Assembly: GCA_020443425.1 (NCBI GenBank)
Contig: JAGRIE010000003.1
Location: 138,978-202,977, forward strand
Source of the DNA: Halioglobus sp.
GTDB lineage: Bacteria; Pseudomonadota; Gammaproteobacteria; Pseudomonadales; Halieaceae
Length of the DNA: 64,000 nucleotides
Reading direction: 5' to 3'
The notes below the pieces were generated by a model, which ran no database searches, had not been told where the DNA came from, and saw only the letters and a program-made list of their open reading frames with translations. How positions within the stretch are numbered: position 1 is the stretch's first letter; each line of letters opens with the position of its first letter. Shown here piece after piece: positions 47,844 through 64,000 of this stretch. A program made the translations under genes and the position numbers.

Positions 47844-48911
47844 ATGAAAGATATTGCAATCGTCGCGTATCAGCAGTCCGATAGCGTTTCGGATGCGGGT
47901 GCTGTCAATGAAGTTGAGCTGATCATGCCGGTGCTGGCGCGCACCTTCGAACAGGCGGGGCTGAACAGCGCGCAGGATGTCGATTTTGTCTGCTCCGGTA
48001 GCTGCGACTACCTGCAGGGCGCGGCCTTCGCGTTTGTCTCAGGCGTGGACGCCCTCGGCGCTGTGCCGCCGATCAAGGAATCCCATGTCGAGATGGACGC
48101 CGCCTGGGCGCTGTATGAATCCATACTGAAAATTCGCATGGGTCACGCCGACTCGGCACTGATTTACGGCTTCGGTAAATCCTCACCCGGTGAACTGCCG
48201 GTGGTGCTGTCCCAGCAACTCGACCCCTACTACCTGGCGCCGCTGTGGGTGGACAGCATTTCGCTGGCGGCACTGCAGGCCAGAATGATGTTGGACAAGG
48301 GGCTGATCACTGAGCGGGACATGGCCGAGGTGGTGTCGCGCTCGCGTCGCAATGCCATGAACAACCCGCACGCCCAGCTGTCCGGTGATATCTCGGTGGA
48401 CGATGTCCTCGCCGAGGAGACCTACCTGTCTCCGCTGCGCAAGGCGGATTGCAGCCCGATCTCCGATGGCGCCAGCGCCATCATTATCGCGACCGTGGAG
48501 CAGGCCAGGGCCTGGGGCCTGCCCTATGCGGTGATCAGCGGTATTGACCACTGTATCGAGACGCACAACCTCGGCATGCGCGACCTGACCGATTCAGTCT
48601 CGACGCGCATGGCGGCCAACCGTGCCGGCATGAACACAGGCAAGGTGGATGTGGCCGAGCTCTATGCGCCATTCAGCCACCAGGAGATTATTCTGGCGCG
48701 CGCCCTGGGGCTGGATGACAGCACCCAGGTCAATCCCAGTGGTGGTGTGCTGGCCGGCAACCTGATGATGGCCTCCGGCCTGTCCCGTGTCGGTGAAGTC
48801 TTCAACCGTATTGTGAAGGGTGAGGCGCAGCGGGGTATCGCTCATGCGACTTCAGGTCCCTGCCTGCAGCACAACCTGGTAACGGTCCTGGAAAAAGGAG
48901 AGAACGCATAA
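47844..48911 (+). CDS. Thiolase-fold lipid-transfer (Ltp-like) protein, no nucleophile Cys
   Basis: A 355-residue thiolase-fold protein. It has the C-terminal motifs DVAELYAPFSHQE, NPSGGVLAGNLMMASG and HATSGPCLQHN. The thiolase nucleophile region reads KESHVEMDAAWAL, with no cysteine at the expected place (about residues 83-84), and the histidine of GHP is replaced by Asn (GNL). It is therefore unlikely to be a true thiolase. In Ltp2-type enzymes with DUF35 partners the fold works as an aldolase. It sits directly after two DUF35 genes and overlaps the next thiolase-fold gene by one base (TAATG), as expected for a complex. Confidence 0.88.
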   Translation: MKDIAIVAYQQSDSVSDAGAVNEVELIMPVLARTFEQAGLNSAQDVDFVCSGSCDYLQGAAFAFVSGVDALGAVPPIKESHVEMDAAWALYESILKIRMGHADSALIYGFGKSSPGELPVVLSQQLDPYYLAPLWVDSISLAALQARMMLDKGLITERDMAEVVSRSRRNAMNNPHAQLSGDISVDDVLAEETYLSPLRKADCSPISDGASAIIIATVEQARAWGLPYAVISGIDHCIETHNLGMRDLTDSVSTRMAANRAGMNTGKVDVAELYAPFSHQEIILARALGLDDSTQVNPSGGVLAGNLMMASGLSRVGEVFNRIVKGEAQRGIAHATSGPCLQHNLVTVLEKGENA

Positions 48912-50074
48912 TGGCTAATTTGGCAGCGGTGGTCGGCATTGGCCAGACCAAGTACATGACCAAGAGAACAGATGTCTCAATTGCGGGCTTGTTGCGCGAA
49001 GCTGCGTTCAAGGCGCTGCAGGACGCGGAACTCACCTGGGACGATATCGATGCCGTGATCATCGGCAAGGCCCCTGATATGTTTGAGGGTGTCATCATGC
49101 CCGAGGTGTATCTGACCGATGCGCTCGGGTGTAATGGCAAGCCGATGCTGCGTGTGCACACGGCGGGCTCCGTCGGCGGTTCCACAGCACTGGTGGCAGC
49201 GTCCCACGTGCAGAGCGGCACGTTCAAGCGGGTGCTGACGGTGGCGTTCGAGAAGCAGTCAGAGTCCAACGCGATGTGGGCACTGTCGAATGCCCAGCCG
49301 TTCTCCACCCACCTGAACGCGGGTGCCGGCGGCTACTTTGCACCCATTATCCGCGAGTATATGCGCCGCTCCAAGGCGCCCTATGACGTGGGTATCAAGG
49401 TGGCAGTGAAAGATCGCCTGCACGGTGCACGCAACCCGCTGGCGCATCTGCAGAAGCCCGACATCACCATGAAAGAGGTGGAAGAATCCTTCATGCTGTG
49501 GGACCCCATCCGCTTCCTGGAATCCTGTCCCTCATCGGACGGCGCCTGTGCCATGGTGATCGCCAACGAAGAGTTGGCCGACAAGGCCTCCAAGCCCCCG
49601 GCCTGGATCCGCGGTGTGGCGATGCGGTCGGAGCCGACCATGTACGCCGGTCGCGAACAGGTCAACCCGCAGGCGGGACGCGACTGTGCCGCCGATGTCT
49701 ACAAGCAGGCGGGCATTACCGACCCGCGCAAGGATCTGGACTGCGCGGAAGTGTATGTACCGTTCAGCTGGTACGAGCCCATGTGGCTGGAAAACCTCGG
49801 CTTTGCGCCCGAAGGTGAGGGCTGGAAACTGACCATGGAAGGCGCCACTTCGCTGGACGAGGGCGGTGATATTCCCTGGAACTGCTCCGGTGGTGTACTG
49901 TCTTCCAACCCGATCGGCGCCTCGGGCATGATCCGGTTTGCCGAGGCCGCCAGGCAGGTACGCGGCGACGCCGGTGCACACCAGGTCGAAGGCGCGAAAC
50001 TGGCGCTGGGTCACGCTTACGGTGGCGGTGCGCAGTTTTTCGCCATGTGGGTTGTCGGCGCAGAGAAGTCGTAA
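48911..50074 (+). CDS. Thiolase-fold lipid-transfer (Ltp-like) protein, no nucleophile Cys
   Basis: A 387-residue thiolase-fold protein related to SCP-x/Ltp. The N-terminal block GIGQTKYMTKRTD and AVIIGKAPDMFEG are typical, and the C-terminus has SGGVLSSNPIGASG and LGHAYGGGAQ. At the nucleophile position the sequence is VHTAGSVGGS instead of the usual cysteine motif, and the usual GHP His is Asn. Like its neighbour it should not catalyse Claisen cleavage by a Cys intermediate. A role as the other subunit of an aldolase with the DUF35 proteins is plausible. Acyl-CoA ligase follows 33 bp downstream. Confidence 0.88.
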   Translation: MANLAAVVGIGQTKYMTKRTDVSIAGLLREAAFKALQDAELTWDDIDAVIIGKAPDMFEGVIMPEVYLTDALGCNGKPMLRVHTAGSVGGSTALVAASHVQSGTFKRVLTVAFEKQSESNAMWALSNAQPFSTHLNAGAGGYFAPIIREYMRRSKAPYDVGIKVAVKDRLHGARNPLAHLQKPDITMKEVEESFMLWDPIRFLESCPSSDGACAMVIANEELADKASKPPAWIRGVAMRSEPTMYAGREQVNPQAGRDCAADVYKQAGITDPRKDLDCAEVYVPFSWYEPMWLENLGFAPEGEGWKLTMEGATSLDEGGDIPWNCSGGVLSSNPIGASGMIRFAEAARQVRGDAGAHQVEGAKLALGHAYGGGAQFFAMWVVGAEKS

Positions 50075-50107
50075 GCGACGTCACACAGGACTCTGGAGAA
50101 AAAACGA

Positions 50108-51736
50108 ATGGCCAAGCACTACAATATTGCCGACCTCTATGAAATGGTGGCCGACAAGGTACCCACGCGCAGCGCGCTGGTGTGCGGCTCACAGCGAGCC
50201 ACGTATGCGGAACTGGAGCAGCGCGCCAACCGGCTGGCGCACTATCTTGCACAACAGGGCGTCAAGGCCGGCGATCATGTCGGCCTGTACCTCTACAACT
50301 GCAACGAGTACCTCGAGGGCATGCTCGCCTGTTTCAAGATCAGGGCGGTGCCGATCAACGTCAACTACCGCTACGTGCAGGATGAGCTGCTGTACATCTT
50401 TGACAATGCGGACATGGTTGCCTGCATCCATAACCAGGAGTTCACGCCCCATATCGCAGAGGTGCGCAAATCGGCACCGGACCTGAAAACCTTTATCTAC
50501 GTGAAGGATGATTCCGGCTGCGATCCCTCAGTGATAGGCTCAATAGAGTACGAGGCCTCGATGGCGGGGCAGAGTGACAAGCGCGATTTCGGCGAGCGCT
50601 CGGACGATGACCTGTTTATTCTCTACACCGGTGGCACCACCGGCATGCCCAAGGGTGTGATGTGGCCGCACAAGGCGGTGTTCTACGCTGCCATGGGCGG
50701 TGGCGGCTGGTTCCACCCCGACGGCGCGATCACGGAGCCGGAGCAGATCGCAGGTCGCATCGGTGATTTCGCGATCGTGGGTATGGCGCTGGCACCGCTG
50801 ATGCACGGCGCCTGCTGGTGGTATGCCTGTATCCAGTTGTTGGCGGGCAACTCCGTGGTGCTGAGCCCCGGCCGTTCACTGGTCGGCGAAGATGTGTGGG
50901 ACATCGTGGAGAAAGAGAAGGTCAACTCCCTATCCATTGTCGGTGATGCGATGGCCGTGCCACTGCTGGATGCACTGGACGCCAACCCCGATCGCTGGGA
51001 CCTGAGCTCTGTGTTCAGCATCGGCTCGGGCGGTGCGGTATTCTCCGAGAGCAAGCAGGATGCCTTCCGGAAAAAATTCCCCAATGTCTATATCTCCAAT
51101 TCCTTCGGCTCTTCCGAGAGCGGCAGTATGGGTATGGACGGCGGCGGCAAAAAGGGCCAGGGCCTGGGCAATATCACCAAGAGTGAGTTCATGTCTGTGA
51201 TCACCGATATCGAGGGTGAGCCGCATCGCCACGTCGAGCGCGGCGAGACGGGTATTTTCGCACGCAGCGGCTACATTCCCGTGGGTTACTACAATGATCC
51301 GGTGAAAACCGCCAAGACCATTGTCGAAGTCGATGGCCAACCGTGGCTGCTGCTGGGCGACGAAGCGCGCCTCGAAGAGGACGACACCATCACGGTATTC
51401 GGGCGCGGTTCCAACTGCATCAACTCCGGCGGTGAGAAGATTTTCCCCGAGGAAGTGGAGCAGGCCCTGAAAGCCAATCCCGATATCTTCGACTGCCTGG
51501 TGGTGGCGACACCCGATGAGCGTTTCGGCAGCCGCGTCACCGCGGTGGTCGCAGCGCGCGGTGATGCCCAACTGACGCTGGCAGGCGTGCAGGAGCATGT
51601 GCGCCAGCATATCGCCGGTTACAAGGTGCCGCGCGAGCTGCATGTGGTGGACGAGGTGCCGCGTGCGCCCAGTGGCAAACCGGCCTATCCGAAAGCACTG
51701 GAAATCGCGCTGGCGGGGACGCACAAGGTGACCTGA
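50108..51736 (+). CDS. Acyl-CoA synthetase, FadD19/steroid-type
   Basis: A 542-residue AMP-forming ligase. The ATP loop is YTGGTTGMPKG followed by VMWPH, the adenylate motif is FGSSESGSMG, the hinge is GRGSNCINSGGEKIFP, and the C-terminal Lys lies in PSGKPAYPKA. The VMWPH after the loop recalls FadD19/FadD17-like ligases that activate steroid side-chain acids. It would supply CoA-thioesters to the enzymes encoded around it. It is in the same operon as the DUF35 and Ltp-like genes. A medium-chain or aromatic acid cannot be excluded. Confidence 0.92.
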   Translation: MAKHYNIADLYEMVADKVPTRSALVCGSQRATYAELEQRANRLAHYLAQQGVKAGDHVGLYLYNCNEYLEGMLACFKIRAVPINVNYRYVQDELLYIFDNADMVACIHNQEFTPHIAEVRKSAPDLKTFIYVKDDSGCDPSVIGSIEYEASMAGQSDKRDFGERSDDDLFILYTGGTTGMPKGVMWPHKAVFYAAMGGGGWFHPDGAITEPEQIAGRIGDFAIVGMALAPLMHGACWWYACIQLLAGNSVVLSPGRSLVGEDVWDIVEKEKVNSLSIVGDAMAVPLLDALDANPDRWDLSSVFSIGSGGAVFSESKQDAFRKKFPNVYISNSFGSSESGSMGMDGGGKKGQGLGNITKSEFMSVITDIEGEPHRHVERGETGIFARSGYIPVGYYNDPVKTAKTIVEVDGQPWLLLGDEARLEEDDTITVFGRGSNCINSGGEKIFPEEVEQALKANPDIFDCLVVATPDERFGSRVTAVVAARGDAQLTLAGVQEHVRQHIAGYKVPRELHVVDEVPRAPSGKPAYPKALEIALAGTHKVT

Positions 51737-51877
51737 GGCTGCGAGTCCGCTGTCTTTCGAGGAGTGGGGGCTCGCCTGACCAGACTCGTGCGACAGCGGA
51801 AATAGCACCAGATTCAACGCGACGGCAAATCGAAACAACAAGCAATCCTAAAACGCATCAGGAAAAAGGTATCCACC

Positions 51878-52696
51878 ATGGCAGAACTCGATATCAGCAC
51901 CAAGAACTGCATCGTAGAACAGGAGGGCAGGGTCCTCATCGTCACGCTCAACCGCCCCGAGGCCAAGAACGCCTTCAGCCCCGAGATGCTGCTGGGCCTG
52001 TACAAGGCGTGGCGCCGGCTGGAGGAGGACGACGAACTGATGTGCGCCATCCTCACCGCCAATGGCGACACCTTCTGCGCCGGTATGGACCTGAAAGCCG
52101 GTGCCGACGGGAACCAGCGTTCGACTGATGAGTTCATGGAGTTGATGGGCAAGGTGCCGAATGTACACTGGCAGGCGCTGCTGCGCGATAACCGCCCCAA
52201 CAAACCGCTGATCCTCGCCGTAGAGGGCTACGCACTGGCCGGCGGCACCGAGATACTGGCCGGCACGGATATCCGTGTCGCGGCTGAGGATGCCACTTTC
52301 GGTGTCACCGAGGTCGCGCGCGGCCTGTATCCGATGGCGGGTTCCAGCATCCGCCTGCCACGGCAGATTCCGTACTGCCTCGCAGCCGAGATCCTGCTGC
52401 TGGGGCGCCATATCTCGGCGCAGGAGGCACTCGACTGGGGCCTGGTGAACCGTGTGGTGCCAAAAGGCCAGACGCTGGCCGTGGCGAAGGAGATCGCCGC
52501 CCAGATCTGCGAGACCGGGCCGCCGGCGCGGAAAGCCATCACCCGCTCGCTGCGCGATATCCAGACCGATGTGAAAGAGGCAGACGCCATGCTGCAATCG
52601 GATGAACTGGCCAACCCGGTGTTCGCCTCTGCCGACGCCAAAGAGGGTATGCGCGCCTTCAAGGAAAAACGCAAAGCCAATTTCACCGGTACCTGA
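51878..52696 (+). CDS. Enoyl-CoA hydratase, EchA19-like
   Basis: A 272-residue crotonase. It has VTLNRPEAKNAFSPEML, FCAGMDLKAGADG, EGYALAGGTEILAG and FGVTEVARGLYPMAGSS, giving both candidate glutamates (TEIL and TEVAR). The pattern resembles the EchA19-type hydratases of steroid side-chain degradation, but that is a similarity judged by eye. It is the last gene of the operon and is followed by a clear terminator. Confidence 0.92.
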   Translation: MAELDISTKNCIVEQEGRVLIVTLNRPEAKNAFSPEMLLGLYKAWRRLEEDDELMCAILTANGDTFCAGMDLKAGADGNQRSTDEFMELMGKVPNVHWQALLRDNRPNKPLILAVEGYALAGGTEILAGTDIRVAAEDATFGVTEVARGLYPMAGSSIRLPRQIPYCLAAEILLLGRHISAQEALDWGLVNRVVPKGQTLAVAKEIAAQICETGPPARKAITRSLRDIQTDVKEADAMLQSDELANPVFASADAKEGMRAFKEKRKANFTGT

Positions 52697-52714
52697 ACGC
52701 TCCCGGTACACAGC

Positions 52715-52745
52715 ATCCACCGCGGGCAGTCGCGGTGGATTTTTG
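52715..52745 (+). terminator. Rho-independent terminator of the DUF35-Ltp-FadD operon
   Basis: ATCCACCGCG (52715-52724) pairs perfectly with CGCGGTGGAT (52731-52740), with a 6-base loop and TTTT following. It ends the operon that begins at 46873. Confidence 0.85.
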
Positions 52746-52781
52746 CTACGCTGTCGCACCCTCCGGAATACGAGTAAACCG

Positions 52782-53456
52782 ATGACCGACCGAGCCGCTA
52801 TCTTTGATCATATCGTCACCTCGCGCCGCTCGCTGCGCGCGTTCCTGCCGCAACAGGTAGAGGACGGCGAACTGTCCAGGATTTTTGACATCGCGCAGCG
52901 TGCGCCCAGCAACTGCAACAGCCAGCCGTGGGTGACACACGTGGTCTCCGGGGCGAAGCTGGACGAGCTGCGGGCGCAGATGCCGCAGCGATTTGCCTCC
53001 GGCAATTTCAGTATGGATTTCCCCTACGACGGTGTGTACCACGGTGTATACAAGGAGCGGCAGTACGGCGCCGCACAGGCCCTGTACGCTGCCGCAGGGA
53101 TTGCGCGTGAGGACAAGGCGAAGCGCAACGAGCAGTTCATGCGCAATTTCACCTTTTTTGACGCGCCGCATGTGGCCTTCCTGTTCCTGCCTGAACCGTT
53201 CGGCCTGCGCGAAGCGGCGGACCTCGGCATGTACGCCCAGACCCTGATGCTGACGCTGACCGCGCACGGCCTCGGCAGTTGCCCGCAGACGGCGCTGGGA
53301 TTCCAGGCGGATTTTGTGCGCGAGCAGCTGCAGATCGACGCCAGCAATAAACTGGTGTTCGGTATTTCATTCGGTTACCCGGATCCGGATGACCCGGTGA
53401 ATGCCTGTGTCACCGACCGCGCGGCGCTGGCCGATGCGGTGACCTTTCACGCCTAG
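52782..53456 (+). CDS. Nitroreductase-family flavoprotein
   Basis: A 224-residue nitroreductase. The FMN-binding SRRSLRAFLPQQV and APSNCNSQPW are followed by DLGMYAQTLMLTLTAHGLG, LGSCPQ, and the family ending GISFGYPDPDDPVN. Such enzymes use NAD(P)H to reduce nitro groups, quinones or enones; some act as dehydrogenases on ring systems. ATG 52782 is used; the frame upstream belongs to the hydratase gene in another frame. It follows a terminator and lies 16 bp before the next crotonase gene. Confidence 0.92.
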   Translation: MTDRAAIFDHIVTSRRSLRAFLPQQVEDGELSRIFDIAQRAPSNCNSQPWVTHVVSGAKLDELRAQMPQRFASGNFSMDFPYDGVYHGVYKERQYGAAQALYAAAGIAREDKAKRNEQFMRNFTFFDAPHVAFLFLPEPFGLREAADLGMYAQTLMLTLTAHGLGSCPQTALGFQADFVREQLQIDASNKLVFGISFGYPDPDDPVNACVTDRAALADAVTFHA

Positions 53457-53472
53457 CCGTACAGGAACCGTC

Positions 53473-54246
53473 ATGACTGACCTGATAAAAACCGAGAACC
53501 GCGACGGCGTGCTGGTGGTGAGCTTCAACCGCGCGGACAAAAGGAATGCGATCAATACACAGATGTGGATTGACCTGCGCGAGACGTTCAAGGCGGCGGC
53601 CGCAGACGATGACGTGGTCTGTGTATTGCTGTGCGGCGCCGGTGATAATTTCTGCGCCGGGGTCGACATGGCCAGTTTCGGCGATGTCGGTGAGGGCGAG
53701 GAGCACCCCTTCGAGTCTGCCGCGCGCGCAGTGGTGGAGTTCGACAAGCCGCTGGTGGCAGCGGCACAGGGGGTGGCCATCGGCGGTGGTGCCACCGTGC
53801 TGTTCCACGCCGATATCGTGTACGTCGGAGAGAGCCTGCGCATGCGCCTGCCGTTTGCCAGCCTCGGCCTGGTGCCGGAGTGGGGCAGCAGCTATATGCT
53901 GCAGGCCAATATCGGCGCACAGCGCGCCGCCGAGTTGTTTTATACGGCGCAGTGGATAGATGCGGACAAAGCCTACAGTGTCGGCATCGCCGCCGCCGTG
54001 CTGCCGGACATCGACCTGTTTGAGCACGCGCTCGCCAAGGCCCGCGAGATCGCCCAGTGGCCGGTCAACTCGCTGCGCGAGATCAAGCGCTCGCTGCGCC
54101 TGCATCACCTGCCCGCTATCGATAGGGCGATCAAGGAGGAGCAGGCCGGTATGCGGCGGCAGGTCGGTTCGCCGGAGAATATCGAGGCGATCACCGCATT
54201 CATGGAAAAGCGCCCACCCAACTTCAGGAATAACGGGGCGGGCTAG
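53473..54246 (+). CDS. Crotonase-family enoyl-CoA isomerase-like protein
   Basis: A 257-residue crotonase. It has FNRADKRNAINTQ, CAGVDMASF and QGVAIGGGATVLF, then SLGLVPEWGSSY. The first hydratase Glu is absent (GATVL), while a Glu is kept in VPEWG, which is the arrangement of delta3-delta2-enoyl-CoA isomerases. It probably repositions double bonds so that unsaturated or ring-derived chains can be degraded. Co-transcribed with the nitroreductase. Confidence 0.9.
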   Translation: MTDLIKTENRDGVLVVSFNRADKRNAINTQMWIDLRETFKAAAADDDVVCVLLCGAGDNFCAGVDMASFGDVGEGEEHPFESAARAVVEFDKPLVAAAQGVAIGGGATVLFHADIVYVGESLRMRLPFASLGLVPEWGSSYMLQANIGAQRAAELFYTAQWIDADKAYSVGIAAAVLPDIDLFEHALAKAREIAQWPVNSLREIKRSLRLHHLPAIDRAIKEEQAGMRRQVGSPENIEAITAFMEKRPPNFRNNGAG

Positions 54247-54384
54247 CACAAACTCCGTGGACTGCTGCAGCCAGCGTGCCCCCGGCACAGCTGCCGGACA
54301 GTCACCTGTTGTGTCTGCAGTCAATCGGGTACACTCCGTGTCAGGCCACGCCAATATCGCAATTATCATAATTAGAGGTAGCCG

Positions 54385-56814
54385 ATGAACACCTTTCTCC
54401 AGCACTGGAAGCCCATTTCTGTCGCCGCCGCCGTGACGCTGGCGCTCACCGCCTGCAGTAACAGCTCCAACAACGGCAATGACCCTGACAACCCTCCGGT
54501 TGACAGCAGTACCTACGCCGCCGACATCGTGTGGACAGAGTATGGCATCCCCCATATCACCGCAGAGGACTACGGCAGCGCCGGCTACGGTGTCGGCTAT
54601 GCCTATGCCCGCGAGAACTTCTGCACCCTGATGCGCGAGTATGTGCGCGCGGCCGGGGAGTCCTCCCGCTATCTCGGTGACGATGGCGACCTCAACTCGG
54701 ACCTCGTGATGAAGCTGTACAACGGCGACGACCGTATCAACCGCATGATCGAGGAGGACCTGCCCGGGTATATCGTGGACAACCTGACCGGCTACGCTGC
54801 GGGCGTTAACCGCTATCTCGCAGAGACGGGGGTCGAAAACCTGGCGCAGGGCGACGAGGGATGTCGCGGCGCGGAATGGGTGCGTGAGGTAGAGCTGCAG
54901 GATGTGGTGCGACTGGTGCACCGCGCCATCCTGGTGGGCAGTGCACAGCCCCTGAGGGATTACATCGTGGCGGCTGAGCCGAGCGCGCAGATGGCGAAGG
55001 TGGCCCTGCCGGAAGGCATGAGCCCTGACGCGCTGATCGCCGCAAACCTGACCCAGGACGCGTTTGAGGCCGGAATCGTACTGCCCAAAGGCGGCGCAAT
55101 GGGCAGTAACGCCTACGCTGTGGGTGCGGACGCATCACAGACCAATTCCGGCATCCTGTTCGGCAACCCGCACTTCCCGTGGCAGGGGCCGCAGCGTTTC
55201 TTCATGTTCCATGTCAGCGTAGGCGATGAATACGATGTGATGGGCGCGGCGCTGTCAGGCCTGCCGGCCCCGGTGATCGGCTTCAGTCGCGACGTGGCCT
55301 GGTCGCATACTGTGAGCACCGCATCGCGATTCAACTTCTACGAGCTGGAACTCAATCCGGACAATCCGATGGAGTATGTCTATGACGATGGCTTCCGCGA
55401 GATCACCAGCGAAACCGTGAGCGTGGAGGTGATGACCGAAGCCGGTGAGGTGGAGACGCTGGAGCACACGTTCTACTTTTCGCACTACGGCGCCATCATC
55501 AACCTCGGCGGCATCAACAGCCTGCTCGACGGCTGGCCCACCATCAACGGCTCTGTGCTCACCTACTACGATGCCAACCTCGAGAACCTGCGTGGCCTGG
55601 AACAGTGGATGAATATGGGCAAGGCCAAAAACCTCGGCGAGTTCAAGAACGCGCTGCGCAGCCTCGGGATTCCCTGGGTGAACACCATTGCCGCAGACCG
55701 CTACGGCGATGCGTTTTACGGTGATATCTCGGTAACCCCGCATATCAGCGTCAGCCAGGCCGACAATTGTGTGCGCGGCCTGCTGCAGAGTGCCGTCACC
55801 GGGTTTGGCTACCTCACGCTGGATGGCTCCGACTCAGCCTGCGAAGCGGGCAGTGATGAGGGTACGGTCGCCGGCATCTTCGGTTACGACAGCCTGCCCA
55901 AACTGGAGACGCGCGAGTACGGTGCCAATGCGAATGACAGCTACTGGTTGTCCAACCCGCGCATGTTGCTGGAAGGCTTCTCGCCGATTATCGGCAAGGA
56001 GCGTGTAGAGCAGAGCCGCCGCACACGGGCGACATTCTCGCAGGCGGAGAGCCGCCTGGCCGGTAGCGATGAGCTGGGCGATCCCGGCTTCAATATCGAT
56101 AATATCCGCCAGTTGCTCTACAACGCCACCAACTATACGGCGGAACTGATACTCGACGATGTGGTGGCGATCTGCCGGCGGGACGACAACAGCGAGGCGG
56201 AGGGCATCTCCATGGAGCAGATGGCCTGCGACCTGCTGGCGGGCTGGGACCGCACCCACCAGAACGACAGCGTGGGTGGCCATATCTTTTTCGAGTTCTG
56301 GAAGGAGCTGCGTTCCACACCCAACCTGTTTGCCGTCCCCTTCGATGCGGCTGACCCGGTGAATACACCGCGCAATCTCAATGTTAACGACAAGGCCGTT
56401 ATCGATGCGGTGCAGGCGGCGCTGGGCGCTGCCGTCGCGACACTGGCGGACGCGGGTATTGAACTGGACAAGCCCTGGGGTGAAGTACAGTTCGTGGAGA
56501 AGAACGGTGAGCGTATTCCCATCCACGGCGGCTCCAGTGACATGATGTTCAGCGTTATCACCTCCGGTCTGGAGGACGGCGAGGGCTACTCCAGCATTCG
56601 CCACGGCAACAGCTATATCCAGGCGATCACCTGGGATGAAAGCGATTGCCCGGATGCCTACGCCATCCTCACGTACTCGCAGTCAACAGACCCGGCCTCC
56701 GAGCACTACGCGGATGCCACCAAGCTGTACTCCAGCGGCGGCTGGATTGATATGCCGTTCTGCGAGGCGGCGCGCGATGCGCAGGAGATCGGGCGGGTGA
56801 CGATTTCGGAGTAG
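54385..56814 (+). CDS. Penicillin-acylase-family Ntn-hydrolase lipoprotein
   Basis: An 809-residue precursor. The signal peptide ends with a lipobox, LALTAC, giving Cys24 as the lipid site, so the enzyme is probably anchored to the outer membrane. It is an N-terminal-nucleophile hydrolase that self-cleaves before a serine: GGAMGSN puts the nucleophile at Ser241. NPHFPW follows, as in PvdQ/acyl-homoserine-lactone acylases. Asn and Arg residues of the active site are expected in the beta-subunit. Substrates could be acyl-homoserine lactones, N-acyl amino acids or bile-acid-like amides; the sequence does not decide. It is a single-gene unit. Confidence 0.9.
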   Translation: MNTFLQHWKPISVAAAVTLALTACSNSSNNGNDPDNPPVDSSTYAADIVWTEYGIPHITAEDYGSAGYGVGYAYARENFCTLMREYVRAAGESSRYLGDDGDLNSDLVMKLYNGDDRINRMIEEDLPGYIVDNLTGYAAGVNRYLAETGVENLAQGDEGCRGAEWVREVELQDVVRLVHRAILVGSAQPLRDYIVAAEPSAQMAKVALPEGMSPDALIAANLTQDAFEAGIVLPKGGAMGSNAYAVGADASQTNSGILFGNPHFPWQGPQRFFMFHVSVGDEYDVMGAALSGLPAPVIGFSRDVAWSHTVSTASRFNFYELELNPDNPMEYVYDDGFREITSETVSVEVMTEAGEVETLEHTFYFSHYGAIINLGGINSLLDGWPTINGSVLTYYDANLENLRGLEQWMNMGKAKNLGEFKNALRSLGIPWVNTIAADRYGDAFYGDISVTPHISVSQADNCVRGLLQSAVTGFGYLTLDGSDSACEAGSDEGTVAGIFGYDSLPKLETREYGANANDSYWLSNPRMLLEGFSPIIGKERVEQSRRTRATFSQAESRLAGSDELGDPGFNIDNIRQLLYNATNYTAELILDDVVAICRRDDNSEAEGISMEQMACDLLAGWDRTHQNDSVGGHIFFEFWKELRSTPNLFAVPFDAADPVNTPRNLNVNDKAVIDAVQAALGAAVATLADAGIELDKPWGEVQFVEKNGERIPIHGGSSDMMFSVITSGLEDGEGYSSIRHGNSYIQAITWDESDCPDAYAILTYSQSTDPASEHYADATKLYSSGGWIDMPFCEAARDAQEIGRVTISE

Positions 56815-57147: not shown

Positions 57148-57192
57148 CGAGTTATCCCAAACTGTAATTTGATGAATAAGGAAACTCATCTT

Positions 57193-60100
57193 ATGACGCG
57201 TGTAATATCAGCAATTGCTATCGACTTGGGTGCTCGCTACACGGGGCTCTATTCAACTCAGTATATGGAAGGCGAAGTGCCGTGCTCGGCTAACGCGCAG
57301 GCAGCTACTTTGGTTCTGCCCGAAGAGGGCGGAAAGATGACGTGGAGTCAGCAGGGTAGAACGGCCACACGTCACAGGTTGAGGTCCAACAAACGGCGCA
57401 AGTTTGCAAAACGGCTCCTGAAATTGTGTATTCAAGCTACGCTGGATTCCTCAGCTATAGATCTGACGGATGACACTTGGGCACGTACATGGGAGGGACT
57501 CAGTGGGTTATTGAATCGACGGGGATTCAACCGGGTACAGGTTGAAGTCGATTTATCAGAGCTCGCGGGTGTAGAGCCCGATTGGTTCGCCCGGACATTT
57601 CCGGATTACTTTGTCACAAGTGTAGATCTTGCCAGCCAGTGGGAGTTGCTCGCGCAAAATCCGGAGCGTTTGCGCGAACTGCAAGCGGACAAAACATTTG
57701 GACAGTCCACTACTGAGTTGAAGAAGCTCATGGTTGATATGGATGCTGTCGAAAAATCAGCTCATGCATCGATCATGACTCTTCTGAAGAGCGCCGTCAG
57801 CAGCATTCTGGATGACCTCGATTATGGTCATAAGCACCGTCTCGACTATCTGCAGGATATTCAAGCACAAATTTCTCGGGATAGCCGATTTCACTGCCTT
57901 GAAGCAGCGATAACGAAAGATGAACTGTGGCGTCTGGTCGGTAACGTTTCCAACCTGCAGTTGAGAGCGTTGCGATGGTACTTCAACGACAAAAGCATGG
58001 CCAAGGGCGATCGCTGGGACGAAAAAGCGCTCGAAAAGGTGCTGATGCGATGGATTGATTATTGGCGGCCACAAGGGGACAAAATTGAGATTGAGAAGAG
58101 CCGTCGCCATCAACGGGAGTTCAAGCAAGCGTTAGTCAGTGCAGGTTCTGCGCTGGTTTTCCTGAAATCGTTCCCGCCAGAATGCTCTATCCCACCTTAT
58201 GAAGACCAGGATAACCGGCGTCCTCCCAAAGACCAGACCCTCTGGTTGAGCCCCGTATCGATGAATAACCAGTTTGGCAGTGAATGGCGCCGGTGGGCGA
58301 AATCCCTGCGGCAAGCCAACCCGGAATGTAATGAGGGCATAGCAGATGCATTGGCTGGCTATGACCGCAAGTCACGGCTTCCGAAAACGGTTAACGATAA
58401 CCGGGTTATGCCTGCATATTCCGACAGCGAACTTGAAGATACCTATTTTTTACAACGGATACTGGACAGGAACCGTTATCTGGACCCCTACGCGCTGCGG
58501 GCGCTTGCACGAAACCTGCGACCAAAGGATACAGAGACGGCCTTCAAGCGCTTGCGTGATGATCTTGGCAGTGAATACGCTAACAGTTTTCTGTCATTTG
58601 CTGAGGCTTACTATTCGGAATGGGAGCTGGCAAGGCAAGGGGTTTGGTCCCGCCATTCGAATTCCTTGCTGGAGCGCTCGGATCTGAATCCGCCCCATAA
58701 ATCGAAGTTGCTGAATGTGCTGGTGGGAAACATTATTCAGCAGAAACTCGACGAAGATGAGTTGGCCACATTCCTGGAGAATCTCTGGACTAAGCGCGTG
58801 GTTGGCAAAAGTACGCTCAGAGGCGCCGCCAAATCCATAGAGGAGTGCCGCAAGCAACACGGTAATCTGTTCAATGAGAAGCTTCGACGAATGCGTTACC
58901 AGAAGGAGCTGTTGCACGAGGAAAAACCAAAATGGGACAAAGAGCAGAAAGAAATCTGGAAGGTGTACGAAAAGGCGTTATTGGCATCTGGGGTTATTGC
59001 CGAGTATTTCAGGCATGAACACACGCGCGCCGAAAAATATGCAAACCCTTACAGTATTGCCCAACTGTATACAATTCTGGAAACCGACCGGAAAGGGTTT
59101 TCCCGCACCACCCGTGCAGCGCATCTGGAAAACAACTGGCGTATGGGTGAGGTGACTTTGGCGTCAGGGAAGGTTATCGCCCGATGCAGCCGTCTGCCTG
59201 CGGATAGTGTGAGGCCATTTGATGGTGTCCTGAAGCGTGTGCTTGAGCGCAGTGCTGCCGAGATCGCCAGGTTTAAGAGCGAGCAGATCCGGTCACTTGA
59301 AAGCAGGGGGCTGGAGTTGGAGGTGCCCATTCTCGTTGAAGAGAACAGATTTGCGTTCAGTGAGTCGCTGCTGGACTTGAAAAAGGCAAGCCCCAAGCGC
59401 CGTAAAGCACTCTCCGAACGCTTGTCTCAGCAATCCACCCGCTGGCAGACCAAGCATGAGAGAATCACTGCGGCATCTCGTGGCATCTGCCCCTATCTCG
59501 GGGTGGCTATCGGAAGCAATGGTGAGCGTGACCATATCCTGCCGCAGTCGAGTAGCCTGAGTCAGTCCGGAACAGTCTACAACAGCGAGGCCAACCTGAT
59601 TTACTGCTCGCGGGATGGCAACCAGAGAAAGGGTAACAAGCGCTATGGTCTTGCGGATCTCCATGCAAACTATTTAAGGACGTTATTTGGAACGGATGAC
59701 AGTAATGAGGTCCGACTTCAAATTGAACGTAAGGTGGAGGCTCTGCCGAACGGCTTCATTTTTGATGCACTGTCTCCGGATGACCAGAATGCAGTGCGGC
59801 ACAGCCTCTTTCTGGCTGATGACAGTTCTGCCAGGGCGCGTGTTGTGACGCATCTCGCTAAACAGAATGCTTCGCGTGTTAACGGCACGCAGGCCTGGCT
59901 TGCCCGGCGAGTTGTTGAATTGTTGTCAGATGACTTGAGTGCCTGGGCGGAGAGCAGGGGCCACAGTTTGCGTTTTTCTGTTTATAGGATTGATGCTCAG
60001 AGTACCAGCGAAACAAGGGTTCTATTGGGAGAATACGATAGTAAATTTGTGAAGCCGAGTCCCCAGGGTGTCTCTTCCCACGCCATTGATGCGATGTGCG

Positions 60101-61491
60101 TTTATGCCGCTGCAGGCAGTGTTCAACGAGTAGCCGATAAGCTGGCAATCGGATCTATTTTCCAGGAGGACATGCACGTTTTGTCAGAGGCATTTCCCGG
60201 AGCACTAGAGATTCGGCGGATAGAGCGGAAATCGAGGGCCGAGAAGTCTGATATATCTTCACAGCCAATCTTTAAGGAAGGTATCTATGCAGAACATTTT
60301 CTTCCTTTATGGGTGGATGAAAAAGTCGTGAGAGTCGGCTGGGAAAAATCTACCGGACTGGTTGTTGAAGGTTCCAAACCAAGGTTGCTGGTAGAAGTCT
60401 TGGCCCCTTGTATCAAGGGCGGGGACGCCGCGGTTGCTGCCGCGTTGACGGCAGAGCACAGCGTGAGATTGGAGATTGATCGTCAGCTGGCGTTTGAGTA
60501 CCTTCGCCGATCTGCAAAAGAGCCACTAACGGACGTGGAACTTTGCCTGACTGCTATGCTTGAAGGCCTGTACTATTCCACCAGTAAGAAAGAGGTACAG
60601 AAACGCCTTTATGATGCGGCGAGAAAATCCTTCAGGTCTGCGGATGAAATTCTCGACGAAAGGGACTTTCGCGTGAATGTCCAGCTTGCTATCGGCCGCG
60701 GCAAAAAGGCCAGTGTGAGTCTGAAGGGAAATTTGCTTTTACCAGCACGCAATGATTGGCATGCCCTATTAGCGGTGCCTGAGATTGGTGAGTTACTCGG
60801 CCAGAAAACGCCAGAGCCCGCTAACATGCGACGGATCTATGAGAAGCATTTCAATGCCGGTAGTCGAGTCAAACACAGCCCTGTCCGGCGGGTATTTTCT
60901 TTACCGATAGTGGATGCGCCCAGTGGTGGCTTTCGAATCAGAAGAAAGGGGCAGGCAGGTGATATTTGGCAGTTGCATGCAATTGAGGGCTCTCCCGCAG
61001 TCGGCTTTGCCGTGGATTCCAACAGAAAAATTCAGTGGGATACCACTGTTCTTCATCCATCGTTGCTGGACAGCGGAAACATCGTTGGTAAGAGGGCAAG
61101 ATACCAGCATGACGCCGGGGAAATACTGGCTTTTGGCAAGTGGTTACCAATAGAGGTGCCGCTGCCAGCTGAAATTATCCGTTTGGAAATGGCGCCTGGT
61201 ACCAAGGATCGGAGATATATTCGACTAACCCAATCCTTTGCGTCATTGCGAAAATGGTTGTTGTCTGCCAGCAAGGAGGCTATTGCAGGGCCGCTTGATC
61301 TTCCCGCTGAAATTAAAGTGACCCCCGCGGTATTTGCCAAAGAACACGGCATCACCCTGCTTGGCAAGCCACGATCAAATCTGTTTGTTGAAACTGTAGG
61401 GAGTTTTGTTACCTATTGGTACATTGTAGAGAGCAGTAATGCCGCGATGAAGACCGCCTACCAGGAAGCATATAACAAGATATCAGGGTAA
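57193..61491 (+). CDS. cas9: Type II-B Cas9 RNA-guided DNA endonuclease
   Basis: A 1432-residue Cas9. RuvC-I is IAIDLGARYTG with Asp11. The Arg-rich bridge helix spans about 57-76. A long helical recognition lobe follows. RuvC-II has Glu716 in PILVEENRF. The HNH domain has Asp780-His781 in ERDHILPQSS and Asn810 in DGNQRKG. RuvC-III has His963 and Asp966 in SSHAIDAM. The C-terminal third should contain the PAM-reading domain. N-terminal sequence, size and the cas4 linkage match Francisella-type II-B, although this is shorter than F. novicida Cas9. The start is ATG 57193 with AAGGA upstream; a TTG at 57169 and an ATG at 57172 lack a ribosome site. Both nuclease sites appear intact. Confidence 0.97.
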   Translation: MTRVISAIAIDLGARYTGLYSTQYMEGEVPCSANAQAATLVLPEEGGKMTWSQQGRTATRHRLRSNKRRKFAKRLLKLCIQATLDSSAIDLTDDTWARTWEGLSGLLNRRGFNRVQVEVDLSELAGVEPDWFARTFPDYFVTSVDLASQWELLAQNPERLRELQADKTFGQSTTELKKLMVDMDAVEKSAHASIMTLLKSAVSSILDDLDYGHKHRLDYLQDIQAQISRDSRFHCLEAAITKDELWRLVGNVSNLQLRALRWYFNDKSMAKGDRWDEKALEKVLMRWIDYWRPQGDKIEIEKSRRHQREFKQALVSAGSALVFLKSFPPECSIPPYEDQDNRRPPKDQTLWLSPVSMNNQFGSEWRRWAKSLRQANPECNEGIADALAGYDRKSRLPKTVNDNRVMPAYSDSELEDTYFLQRILDRNRYLDPYALRALARNLRPKDTETAFKRLRDDLGSEYANSFLSFAEAYYSEWELARQGVWSRHSNSLLERSDLNPPHKSKLLNVLVGNIIQQKLDEDELATFLENLWTKRVVGKSTLRGAAKSIEECRKQHGNLFNEKLRRMRYQKELLHEEKPKWDKEQKEIWKVYEKALLASGVIAEYFRHEHTRAEKYANPYSIAQLYTILETDRKGFSRTTRAAHLENNWRMGEVTLASGKVIARCSRLPADSVRPFDGVLKRVLERSAAEIARFKSEQIRSLESRGLELEVPILVEENRFAFSESLLDLKKASPKRRKALSERLSQQSTRWQTKHERITAASRGICPYLGVAIGSNGERDHILPQSSSLSQSGTVYNSEANLIYCSRDGNQRKGNKRYGLADLHANYLRTLFGTDDSNEVRLQIERKVEALPNGFIFDALSPDDQNAVRHSLFLADDSSARARVVTHLAKQNASRVNGTQAWLARRVVELLSDDLSAWAESRGHSLRFSVYRIDAQSTSETRVLLGEYDSKFVKPSPQGVSSHAIDAMCVYAAAGSVQRVADKLAIGSIFQEDMHVLSEAFPGALEIRRIERKSRAEKSDISSQPIFKEGIYAEHFLPLWVDEKVVRVGWEKSTGLVVEGSKPRLLVEVLAPCIKGGDAAVAAALTAEHSVRLEIDRQLAFEYLRRSAKEPLTDVELCLTAMLEGLYYSTSKKEVQKRLYDAARKSFRSADEILDERDFRVNVQLAIGRGKKASVSLKGNLLLPARNDWHALLAVPEIGELLGQKTPEPANMRRIYEKHFNAGSRVKHSPVRRVFSLPIVDAPSGGFRIRRKGQAGDIWQLHAIEGSPAVGFAVDSNRKIQWDTTVLHPSLLDSGNIVGKRARYQHDAGEILAFGKWLPIEVPLPAEIIRLEMAPGTKDRRYIRLTQSFASLRKWLLSASKEAIAGPLDLPAEIKVTPAVFAKEHGITLLGKPRSNLFVETVGSFVTYWYIVESSNAAMKTAYQEAYNKISG

Positions 61492-61495
61492 TCTG

Positions 61496-62494
61496 ATGAG
61501 ACATCTGACTGTGATGGAGTATGGTCATTTTCTGGGGTGCCAGGGCGAGCGGCTACAGGTCAAGGGTAATGACGGGCTGATAGCAGAAACGCCTCTTTCA
61601 CGCCTGCGTTCCGTTACGATTGCGAAGCGGGGTGTCTCGTTTTCAAGTAACCTGCTGTTGGAATGCGCCAGTCGAGGAATTCGTTTTTTTATTGCGGATT
61701 GGCGCGGACGAAATGTAGTCGCACTGTCAGGTACTCACCAGCATGCCGTTTCCGCACTACGACGTGCACAATTTGAGTTTATTGAGACACCCCAGGCTCG
61801 ATCCGTGGCTGCCCAGATGCAGTTCGGTAAAGTACGGAACCAGCGTGCCGTATTACTGTATTTCAGCAAGTATTCCCGGTTGAAATCATCTGACTCAGTC
61901 CGATTGTTGGCAACAGCGGCAGATAAAATCGCTGAGTGCAGCCGTGCGTTGAGCTCTATTGATTTCAGCCGACGTGATTCATGGCGCGAAGAGATATTGG
62001 GCTATGAAGGCGCCGCTGCCAGTATTTACTGGCGTGCACTTGCGGCTGCTCAACTTGTCCCAGATTCATTTGTTGAAAGGCAGGGGCGTGGAGCTACTGA
62101 AGTTACCAACCAGCTGTTGAACTATGGTTATTCGTTATTAACAACTTATGTATGGAGTGCGCTGGATAACGCCGGTTTCGAGCTTTACTGTGGAATACTA
62201 CATGCACAGCGACCGGGAAAGCCGTCGCTGGTATTGGATTTCATGGAGGAGTATCGCCCCTGGGTTGTAGATCGGTGTGTAATAAAACTGCGGCAGCAAC
62301 TGAAAAACAAGTGCCGGATGGACACAAGCCTGAAACGAAAGCTCACAGAAGACATCCAGTACACAATGTCAAAACCCTATGCTTATAACGGCAAGCGCCT
62401 ACGTCTGGAGTCGATATTGCAGCGTCAGGCATATCGTTTGGGAGGCGTGATGGTTGAAGATAAGACTTATCGCCCATATCGTTTCAGGTGGTAG
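61496..62494 (+). CDS. cas1: Cas1 CRISPR integrase
   Basis: A 332-residue Cas1, the catalytic subunit that inserts new spacers with Cas2. The metal ligands are recognisable: Glu171 in GYEGAAASIYW, His236 in GILHAQRP, and Asp248 with Glu251 in LVLDFMEEYRP. The N-terminal beta-domain ends near residue 85, and the rest is the helical catalytic domain. The ATG is 4 bp after the cas9 stop, so it is co-translated. It appears complete, so the locus should be adaptation-competent. Confidence 0.97.
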   Translation: MRHLTVMEYGHFLGCQGERLQVKGNDGLIAETPLSRLRSVTIAKRGVSFSSNLLLECASRGIRFFIADWRGRNVVALSGTHQHAVSALRRAQFEFIETPQARSVAAQMQFGKVRNQRAVLLYFSKYSRLKSSDSVRLLATAADKIAECSRALSSIDFSRRDSWREEILGYEGAAASIYWRALAAAQLVPDSFVERQGRGATEVTNQLLNYGYSLLTTYVWSALDNAGFELYCGILHAQRPGKPSLVLDFMEEYRPWVVDRCVIKLRQQLKNKCRMDTSLKRKLTEDIQYTMSKPYAYNGKRLRLESILQRQAYRLGGVMVEDKTYRPYRFRW

Positions 62495-62496
62495 TA

Positions 62497-62793
62497 ATGG
62501 GTACCCATAATCGATATTTATTTTGCTATGACGTGGAAGACAACAAGACCAGACGCAAGCTCTTTGAGGCACTGAAAGACTTGGGATTAGTGCCGATTCA
62601 AAAATCAGTTTTTTTTGGAGACCTGAATGCGGCAGAGCTTAGAAGTTTGAGGCGATTGGTATGCTCTCTATTGGACGCCGGCTCAGACCGCTGTTTCTGG
62701 GTGCAGAGTAATGGTCTTGAACGTGACTTGCCCGCGCATCTTGGATACCGAAATTTTACATTGATACCGCCAGAGGGTAGTTGTTGTGTATAG
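62497..62793 (+). CDS. cas2: Cas2 adaptation protein
   Basis: A 98-residue Cas2, which bridges two Cas1 dimers in the spacer-integration complex. The ferredoxin-like N-terminus YLFCYDVEDNKTRRKLFEAL places the conserved Asp at residue 12. ATG 62497, three bases after the cas1 stop region, has AGGTGG at 62486-62491. A GTG at 62488 would overlap cas1 and is less likely. The 3' end overlaps the cas4 start by 8 bp. Confidence 0.95.
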   Translation: MGTHNRYLFCYDVEDNKTRRKLFEALKDLGLVPIQKSVFFGDLNAAELRSLRRLVCSLLDAGSDRCFWVQSNGLERDLPAHLGYRNFTLIPPEGSCCV

Positions 62794-63373
62794 TGACGGC
62801 TCTCTGCCAGTTTCTACACTTCGGCAGCTGATATTCTGTTCACGTATCCCATATATCAGCGAAAGCTTGGGAATAGCGGCTGGTTCACGCCCATGGTTGA
62901 GACAAGGCGTGGACTACCAACAGCGCCAGGAGATGCTGAATAAGCGGCGCACTCTTGGCCGCTACCATCTGGCGTTGGATGGCGCGCAAATAATCCACAA
63001 CTATCAGTTGAGAAGCAAGAAATTGCGGATACATGGGATATGTGATGCTGTAATCAAAGCACCGCATTTTGCCGCTCCGGTCGAGTTTAAAATGTCGGAA
63101 GATAAGCCGGGCAGGGGGCAAATTGTACAGCTGGTAGCCTATGGGCTTATATTAGCTGAAGAACTGCACCTCAACGTAACAAACGGCTATATTTTATACG
63201 GAGAGCGAGGCAGGACGCTGGAGGTTTCTATGAAGCTATGGAAACCAAAGGTCCTGGAACTCATAACGGATCTGCATGATCTTCTGGCTTACCCGCTCCT
63301 GCCCTCCAGTTCTGCATCCGAAGCGCAGTGCGGACAATGTGAATATCTTAATTTTTGTGCCGACAGATTTTGA
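62786..63373 (+). CDS. cas4: Cas4 iron-sulfur nuclease
   Basis: A 195-residue RecB-like Cas4, which trims prespacers and helps select those next to a proper PAM. The four cluster cysteines are Cys18 and Cys182, Cys185 and Cys191. Nuclease residues are Asp87 in GICDAV, Glu100 and Lys102 in VEFK, and Gln115 in QLVAYG. GTG 62786 has AGAGGG eight bases upstream. Cas4 in a Cas9 operon is the hallmark of subtype II-B (II-A has csn2, II-C has neither). The operon ends at a terminator 20 bp downstream. Confidence 0.95.
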   Translation: MYSDGSLPVSTLRQLIFCSRIPYISESLGIAAGSRPWLRQGVDYQQRQEMLNKRRTLGRYHLALDGAQIIHNYQLRSKKLRIHGICDAVIKAPHFAAPVEFKMSEDKPGRGQIVQLVAYGLILAEELHLNVTNGYILYGERGRTLEVSMKLWKPKVLELITDLHDLLAYPLLPSSSASEAQCGQCEYLNFCADRF

Positions 63374-63392
63374 TACGATAGCAGTGAGCCAG

Positions 63393-63426
63393 AAAATAAA
63401 AAGGACCACTGAAGTGGCCCTTTTTT
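63393..63426. terminator. Bidirectional terminator between cas4 and tracrRNA
   Basis: GGACCACT (63403-63410) pairs with AGTGGCCC (63413-63420). TTTTTT follows on the plus strand (63421-63426), and the minus strand reads into TTTTT from 63402. On the minus strand the one mismatch becomes a G-U pair. It can end both the cas operon and the leftward tracrRNA. Confidence 0.8.
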
Positions 63427-63526
63427 AACTCCGGATGCTCGAGGCAGAAGCCGGATTCAAACATGATTTTAGAGGATTTCAGCTCCCACGAATGGGATTC
63501 CTCAGGCTCCTTGGGATAGGATCTGT
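63400..63526 (-). ncRNA. tracrRNA candidate of the type II-B system
   Basis: The minus strand at 63526-63510 reads ACAGATCCTATCCCAAG. This is identical to positions 4-20 of the plus-strand repeat unit, so it is a perfect 17-nt anti-repeat to the leftward-transcribed crRNA. CCUG a few bases on can pair with CAGG of the repeat, then GAAUC near the repeat 5' end. Downstream are a UCCCA-UUCG-UGGGA hairpin inside a GAGGA/UCCUC stem, and a UCCGG/CCGGA stem-loop. The RNA would end at the terminator near 63400, about 125 nt. It is the tracrRNA by position, complementarity and fold; no expression evidence is available. Confidence 0.8.
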
Positions 63527-63531
63527 GTTTG

Positions 63532-63559
63532 AGAATACCGTAATGTTCGCAAAAGACAA
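63532..63559 (-). promoter_or_regulatory. Promoter of the tracrRNA
   Basis: On the minus strand TTGTCT (63559-63554) and TATTCT (63537-63532) are 16 bp apart. The predicted start falls at about 63526-63524, the first base of the anti-repeat, which is the position expected for a short tracrRNA. Confidence 0.5.
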
Positions 63560-63645
63560 AGTAAAATTTGCAATTACCTCACTTTCGACAAAATCGCTTC
63601 ACGATAGCCACGTTACCTCAGTATTGGCGCGCTCCTTAGAGCGGG

Positions 63646-64000
63646 CCTACAGATCCTATCCCAAGAAACCTGCAACTGAAACCACTCTGTACGTCCTGCC
63701 TGTGAATCGGTATGCGCCTACAGATCCTATCCCAAGAAACCTGCAACTGAAACAACAATCCCTGCATCAAATATCCACTCACAGGCACCTACAGATCCTA
63801 TCCCAAGAAACCTGCAACTGAAACATATCACTCAAGTTTTACAAATTGTATCCCTCCAGCCTACAGATCCTATCCCAAGAAACCTGCAACTGAAACTGCA
63901 TATCACCAGCCTGCATACTGCTCATAACCGGCCTACAGATCCTATCCCAAGAAACCTGCAACTGAAACTAGGCGTATAGCCCTTGCTGAGTTTCCAGTAC
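63646..64000 (-). CRISPR. CRISPR array, five 37-bp repeats in window, continues to the right
   Basis: Five identical 37-bp repeats lie at 63646-63682, 63717-63753, 63788-63824, 63860-63896 and 63932-63968. They begin CCTACAGATCC and end CTGCAACTGAAAC. Complete spacers are 34, 34, 35 and 35 bp, and a fifth is cut by the window edge. The GCAACTGAAAC end matches the Francisella II-B repeat, whose crRNA starts GUUUCAGUUGC on the opposite strand. Transcription is therefore inferred as leftward, with the leader beyond 64000. The repeat nearest cas4 would be the leader-distal end. A small stem (63630-63643) abuts it. Confidence 0.95.

Follow-up and report, generated by a model that had tools for sequence, protein, structure and literature searches.

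A divergent type II-B CRISPR-Cas9 locus in Halioglobus sp. and a candidate leader element beside the cas-proximal end of II-B arrays

Among the characterised Cas9 proteins of type II-B clustered regularly interspaced short palindromic repeat (CRISPR) systems, PsCas9 of Parasutterella secunda (PDB 8UMF/9KO9) has been measured to use an NGG protospacer adjacent motif (PAM) and to leave predominantly 3-nucleotide (nt) 5' overhangs (PMC10482872; all papers are cited here for the available parts of their text). A Legionella II-B Cas9 has also been characterised (PMC7606464), and interference by a Legionella II-B system has been reported in a paper whose available part describes acquisition for its I-C system (PMC5071653). 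For type II-C, acquisition at the last repeat and a promoter in each repeat have been described (PMC13187072; PMC12814883), and the first of these papers (April 2026) calls the acquisition end of II-B undetermined. Here, we analyzed a 64,000-nt stretch of Halioglobus sp. contig JAGRIE010000003.1 (hereafter the window), which carries a type II-B locus with cas9, cas1, cas2, cas4, a candidate trans-activating CRISPR RNA (tracrRNA) and an array. The locus adds a divergent Cas9 to a kind of system that is already known and whose relatives have been characterised; the broader value of its study lies in a leader element that we infer by comparing 25 loci, partly by eye. We put at about 0.75 the probability that this is an intact, probably working adaptive immunity system that most likely takes up new spacers at the last, cas-proximal repeat.

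For comparison, 35 II-B loci were collected. Six had no array and were dropped (L033, L041, L044, L047, L051, and L052), as were L035 and L058 with doubtful repeats. The near-copies L027, L048, L055, and L059 were excluded from non-redundant counts and included in a 29-locus motif search. Some handles denote the same record (L023 = L050, L021 = L042, L024 = L027). No II-B loci beyond those already known were found around G801 (30 genomes), G719 (4), or G804 (13), nor in G517, and the viral contigs, plasmids, and phages searched contained no II-B Cas9. Beside the cas-proximal end of its array, the window has the following features:

63646-64000, minus strand (the CRISPR RNA, crRNA, strand): CRISPR array, first five repeats counted from the cas side, cut by the contig end
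63630-63643, minus strand: short hairpin adjoining the last repeat, without significance in this single locus (z -0.19)
63582-63593, minus strand: leader arm 1 (TTTTGTCGAAAG), 52-63 nt from the last repeat
63545-63554, minus strand: leader arm 2 (TTTTGCGAAC), 91-100 nt from the last repeat

A motif-free scan of the cas-proximal flank, read in crRNA orientation in 25 non-redundant loci, gave its highest inverted-repeat score at offsets 53 and 91, where on average 9.12 of 12 positions matched, compared with a mean of 5.96 (standard deviation (sd) 0.46) over all 4465 offset pairs. When arm partners were swapped between loci, the observed sum was not reached in 5000 tries; the arms therefore covary within loci. 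The same scan of the far flank in 20 loci reached a maximum of only 6.6 (mean 5.86, sd 0.26), and no far-flank column was conserved above 0.6 bit, the column counts being based on 26 cas-proximal and 21 far flanks with L053 (two repeats, no cas4) included. Fixed, covarying arms are present in II-B loci from several phyla, and the window has both of them.

The arm motif, TTTNCGNAAA, was first seen by eye on these same loci, so its counts are descriptive rather than an independent test, and the motif-free scan, the covariation and the far-flank result are the better controls. With position left free, 24 of 29 loci (20/25 without near-copies) have their best pair starting 52-59 nt from the array, and in 22 of the 29 its spacing is 37-38; at least 13 of 16 letters match in 21 of 29 loci, whereas sequence obtained by first-order resampling gave 2.4 on average and 6 at most. 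Both arms reach at least 6 of 8 letters near their expected places in 19 of 25 loci, against 6 of 1725 anchors on the minus strand of the window. Over its first 48 nt, the cas-proximal flank also folds more stably than shuffles do (mean z -2.18, 14 of 25 loci under -1.5), whereas the far flank gives a mean z of -0.17 with 5 of 20 under -1.5; in the window's own 48-nt flank (z -0.19) the fold is no better than in shuffles.

The decay of terminal repeats bears on which end takes up new spacers. Comparing the two terminal repeats in each of 19 non-redundant closed arrays shows more decay at the far end in eight, more at the cas-proximal end in none, and no difference in 11. Before near-copies and one cut array were removed, the counts were 9, 0, and 14 for 23 arrays of at least three repeats, including L048, L055, and L059 and excluding L027, whose array is cut; L057, first taken as closed although its sequence stops 56 nt past the last whole repeat, is left out of the 19. 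As old ends decay, new spacers likely come in at the cas-proximal end. Entry at the 3' end of the crRNA strand requires an array running opposite to the cas genes, as PMC3936727 describes for II-B, and the tracrRNA layouts of the compared loci, including L028 and L029, agree with this direction. The data suggest that II-B adds spacers at the last, cas-proximal repeat, with the polarity reported for II-C arrays.

In the scheme that we propose, Cas9 with a crRNA:tracrRNA duplex would cut DNA beside an NGG-type PAM, and Cas1, Cas2, and Cas4 would insert new spacers. Both RNAs would be transcribed from the strand opposite to the cas genes. Entry would most likely occur at the cas-proximal last repeat, the 3' end of the crRNA strand, integration being directed by a leader with inverted-repeat arms about 53 and about 91 nt away, and the cas-proximal spacers would be the newest if the entry end is right. 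We lean, by a narrow margin over even odds, to a further-reaching proposal for II-B systems including the window: last-repeat integration at the cas-proximal end would be guided by a locus-specific, covarying inverted repeat at fixed distance and read by the locus's own adaptation proteins, and the same element, which reaches into the promoter region of the tracrRNA, could link the forming of memories to the supply of guides. A fixed, covarying leader element provides a concrete and cheap handle on the acquisition end of II-B; if true, the proposal would tell older from newer spacers within II-B arrays and inform how II-B recording constructs are built.

The proteins of the locus are encoded by four genes, whose reading frames are all open in the window:

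57193-61491, plus strand: cas9, type II-B (Csx12), 1432 amino acids (aa) from ATG (1440 aa from TTG at 57169), assigned by TIGR03031, PF21069, the PsCas9 match, and the tree
61496-62494, plus strand: cas1, 332 aa, TIGR00287 196.8 bits, 43-55% identity to four further II-B Cas1s, including one fragment
62488-62793, plus strand: cas2, 101 aa, GTG start, TIGR01573 and PF09827 above cut-off
62786-63373, plus strand: cas4, 195 aa, GTG start, TIGR00372 88.7 bits against a cut-off of 65

Cas9 scores 485.8 bits with the Csx12 family model TIGR03031 (cut-off 399.4); the best TIGR01865 match in the same genome lies elsewhere than the locus and reaches only 20 bits, below the cut-off of 100. Family models run on the operon frames detected cas4 and nothing resembling csn2 there (the search for csn2 did not extend to the remaining genome). 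In a Cas9 tree built by a quick method with Shimodaira-Hasegawa-like approximate likelihood ratio (SH-aLRT) support, a branch with support 100 separates 28 II-B proteins from 10 II-C proteins used as outgroup, and the window Cas9 lies inside II-B; the set contained no II-A proteins. The type II-B assignment made in an earlier note on this DNA is thus upheld, and the phylogeny it called for, in this II-C-rooted form, does not place the protein outside II-B. II-C Cas9s occupy another branch, and their loci lack cas4 (cas9, cas1, and cas2 being the set given in PMC3936727). TIGR03639, the named type II Cas1 model, scores the window Cas1 at 88.3 bits, under its cut-off of 120. The rarity claimed in the earlier note agrees with our counts of II-B Cas9 above cut-off, which are 1 of 140 genomes in the family, 2 of 390 in the order, and 4 of 369 in the class, the own genome being counted each time. 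Its stress on a non-pathogen-like setting was overstated, as II-B loci occur in many non-pathogens, including Sutterella, Turicimonas, sponge and mussel symbionts, and HTCC5015.

No other II-B Cas9 in the comparison exceeds 44% identity to that of the window. The nearest solved chain is PsCas9 (835 bits over residues 4-1427), which is also similar in length (chains of 1435-1462 aa), and four Sutterellaceae II-B Cas9s in the adjoining tree group are 33-36% identical to the window Cas9. That few II-B Cas9s have been characterised, with FnCas9 of Francisella novicida (PDB 5B2O) as the reference, accordingly needs amending, because PsCas9 is closer and the Legionella protein has been characterised too. 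The F. novicida system resembles the window in its cas4, its array strand, and the aligned FnCas9 residues Arg1556, Tyr794, and Gln798; it differs in Cas9 length (1629 against 1432 aa, as had been noted) and in one clamp position.

Residues D11, E716, D780/H781, N810, H963, and D966, which we take to be the RuvC and HNH catalytic positions, are invariant in all 28 aligned II-B Cas9s, and the statement that every catalytic residue is present holds on that assumption. R1340 aligns with FnCas9 Arg1556 and is invariant in a 23-row alignment; Arg1556 and Arg1585 are presumably the PAM-side arginines of FnCas9, and a KPR motif at 1392-1394 may stand for the latter. In the REC3 clamp, Tyr794 and Gln798 of FnCas9 are kept (Q624 of the window being invariant in 28 rows) and Ser792 is replaced by Asn, while PsCas9 has Asn, Phe, and Gln at the three positions. 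By homology, the window Cas9 is predicted to recognise an NGG-type PAM, and it would probably make a staggered cut with high sensitivity to mismatches, as PsCas9 and FnCas9 do; the PAM and overhangs of PsCas9 have been measured, those of the window protein being predictions from this likeness.

Thalassolituus sp. locus L042, from the same order as the host, has a Cas9 43-44% identical to that of the window, a similar repeat, and leader arms at 55 and 93. Unlike the intact genes of the window, its cas1 and cas4 pieces are fused in a 213-aa frame (12386-13027, matching Cas1 residues 57-94 and Cas4 residues 46-192) and no cas2 was found in it; cas9 and 18 repeats are still there. In this metagenome-assembled genome, the adaptation genes were apparently joined by an internal deletion. 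In L050 (12197-13190; HTCC5015) and L033 (3780-4790), cas1 is split in two frames, so that the adaptation module may be broken or the assembly wrong.

Five exact 37-nt repeats lie at 63646-63968 with a spacing of 71-72. The final base of the window is also that of contig C156 (202977), which ends inside the array, so the array is incomplete here. Contig C141 of the same genome (4334610 bases, 222 contigs, completeness 94.18, contamination 3.97) holds 16 more repeats identical to these, making 21 of 21 identical, and we infer that the two pieces belong to one array. The locus had been called complete: the intact cas genes, the tracrRNA candidate and the identical repeats stand, but the array runs off the contig. 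The C141 piece adjoins a urease gene cluster (genes named by eye). Among the other arrays, that of L029 has 14 duplicated spacers (at positions 2-16 and 19-35, counting from the cas side), and six spacers are present twice in that of L056.

The tracrRNA candidate, likewise proposed in the earlier note, consists of the following parts:

63398-63526, minus strand: tracrRNA candidate, called from anti-repeat, fold, duplex with the repeat, and the same layout in relatives
63503-63526, minus strand: anti-repeat located between cas4 and the array, with 92% complementarity across 24 nt
63485-63496, minus strand: hairpin CCCA-UUCG-UGGG in the repeat:anti-repeat bulge, between the anti-repeat and CTGAAA
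63398-63425, minus strand: terminator-like hairpin, 12 pairs, T-run

These parts are in line with a tracrRNA, as is the predicted duplex with the repeat (-56.5 kcal/mol). The single-strand fold has a z of -2.23 (4 of 200 shuffles equally good), and a terminator scan found one in the region against 0.7 expected in shuffles. No Rfam family reached threshold in the window, so the call rests on complementarity, fold, and homology. The 5' end would be set by a -10-like TATTCT inside 63531-63539, placed by eye; a sigma-70 scan of the minus strand returned no promoter. To judge from complementarity, terminator, and repeat homology, tracrRNA and array are probably encoded on the other strand from the cas genes, and the terminator-like hairpin may end the cas transcript too, T's following its stem on the plus strand as well. 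A 128-aa frame at 63435-63821 spans the tracrRNA region and repeats, has no Pfam match, and is most likely not a gene. No F. novicida-type small CRISPR/Cas-associated RNA (scaRNA) was seen between tracrRNA and array among the best two repeat-like matches per strand. Bulge hairpins with other stem letters occur at the same place in L030, L031, L032, and L034 and, by eye, in L042, L028, and L029. All belong to one 11-row tree group, in which the hairpin is missing from L026 and L027, and L035 was not resolved. The group of the Sutterellaceae Cas9s has such a bulge hairpin in common where a tracrRNA was found. L028 (7650-8000) and L029 (7450-7992) have their tracrRNA upstream of cas9, on the same strand as the cas genes, rather than between cas4 and the array.

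Several observations weigh against entry at the cas-proximal end. In over half of the closed arrays the two terminal repeats do not differ, the window array itself has no decayed repeat, and the walk toward far repeats allowed 15 mismatches compared with 12 for the near walk, two of the nine far cases (L042 and L059) exceeding 12. No two of the II-B arrays compared had a spacer in common and no acquisition event was seen, so the evidence on polarity is indirect; no usable spacer target emerged. PMC6737040 takes the II-B array to run in the direction of the cas genes, which would make the cas-proximal end an ordinary 5' leader. As for the arms, six of 25 loci (L025, L028, L029, L043, L049, and L050) fall below 6 of 8 letters in one or both, though some still pair with other letters, and in most loci arm 2 and the promoter region of the tracrRNA overlap, as judged by eye. 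The last point also favours an alternative that we consider improbable, namely that the arms are operators of the tracrRNA promoter, serving autoregulation or a host regulator and unrelated to integration, while II-B acquires at the far end, where the promoter would be. Arm 2 lies directly upstream of the -10-like tracrRNA sequence in most loci (by eye), and each arm is near-palindromic in many. Yet over 18 loci the arms keep a constant distance to the array edge (sd 0.94 and 1.03, values lowered by limiting the search to 45-65 and 83-103 with ties toward 54 and 92) and a variable one from arm 2 to CTGAAAT (sd 15.06); their position thus follows the array edge more closely than the tracrRNA. 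L028, with its tracrRNA elsewhere, keeps sites at 54 and 92 (5 and 7 of 8), although L029, arranged likewise, has weak ones only. The unconserved far flank and the decayed repeats at that end also speak against this alternative.

Transcription from promoters inside each repeat, as in II-C, instead of from one external promoter would be compatible with cas-proximal entry, and we regard it as an even call. The -35/-10-like hexamer score of 25 II-B repeats, computed from promoter letter frequencies, averages 6.17 against 2.61 (sd 0.48) in letter shuffles (0 of 400 as high), and the far flank has no column conserved above 0.6 bit; but the repeats share ancestry, so the shuffle test overstates the signal, the window repeat is weak as a promoter (TAGGAT, p 0.10), and L028, L029, and L043 show nothing (p 0.63-0.85). 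That the locus is a degenerate or silent remnant retained by chance in one assembly is very unlikely. Its presence in a single one of the 140 family genomes and the loss of cas2 with the cas1-cas4 fusion in the related Thalassolituus locus would fit such a history, but the four cas genes are open and above model cut-offs, the invariant Cas9 residues are kept, all 21 repeats are identical, and the tracrRNA candidate ends in a terminator-like hairpin. Gene content, array, and RNA complementarity are seen in the sequence, as are the fixed, covarying arms and, in relatives, the far-end decay; the locus is presumably active.

The PAM inference from spacer searches that had been proposed came to nothing usable in phages, plasmids, family genomes, or IMG/VR. 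Array stretches gave seven phage records, all with E of at least 1, and two plasmid records with E 5. In IMG/VR, there were no exact matches for six 20-nt starts (five spacers and a putative 33-nt one) of 21 spacers or part-spacers. At the C141 end (L010 14631-14985), 355 nt of non-array DNA with small frames run from the array piece to the contig end. Among the 140 family genomes, seven besides the own one gave one short match each (E 5.8e-5 to 0.04), five in this flank and two touching the array. The idea that the flank is a protospacer-bearing element reached by an assembly walk (33 nt then CGG) was rejected and kept only as a lead: among spacer lengths 33-37 only 33 yields NGG, no phage relative was found, and the flank has no second leader arm (6 and 3 of 8). 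Upstream of cas9, the window contains thiolase-, acyl-CoA ligase-, and enoyl-CoA hydratase-like genes (48000-56800), and a penicillin-acylase-like protein at 54385-56814 precedes cas9, all named by eye.
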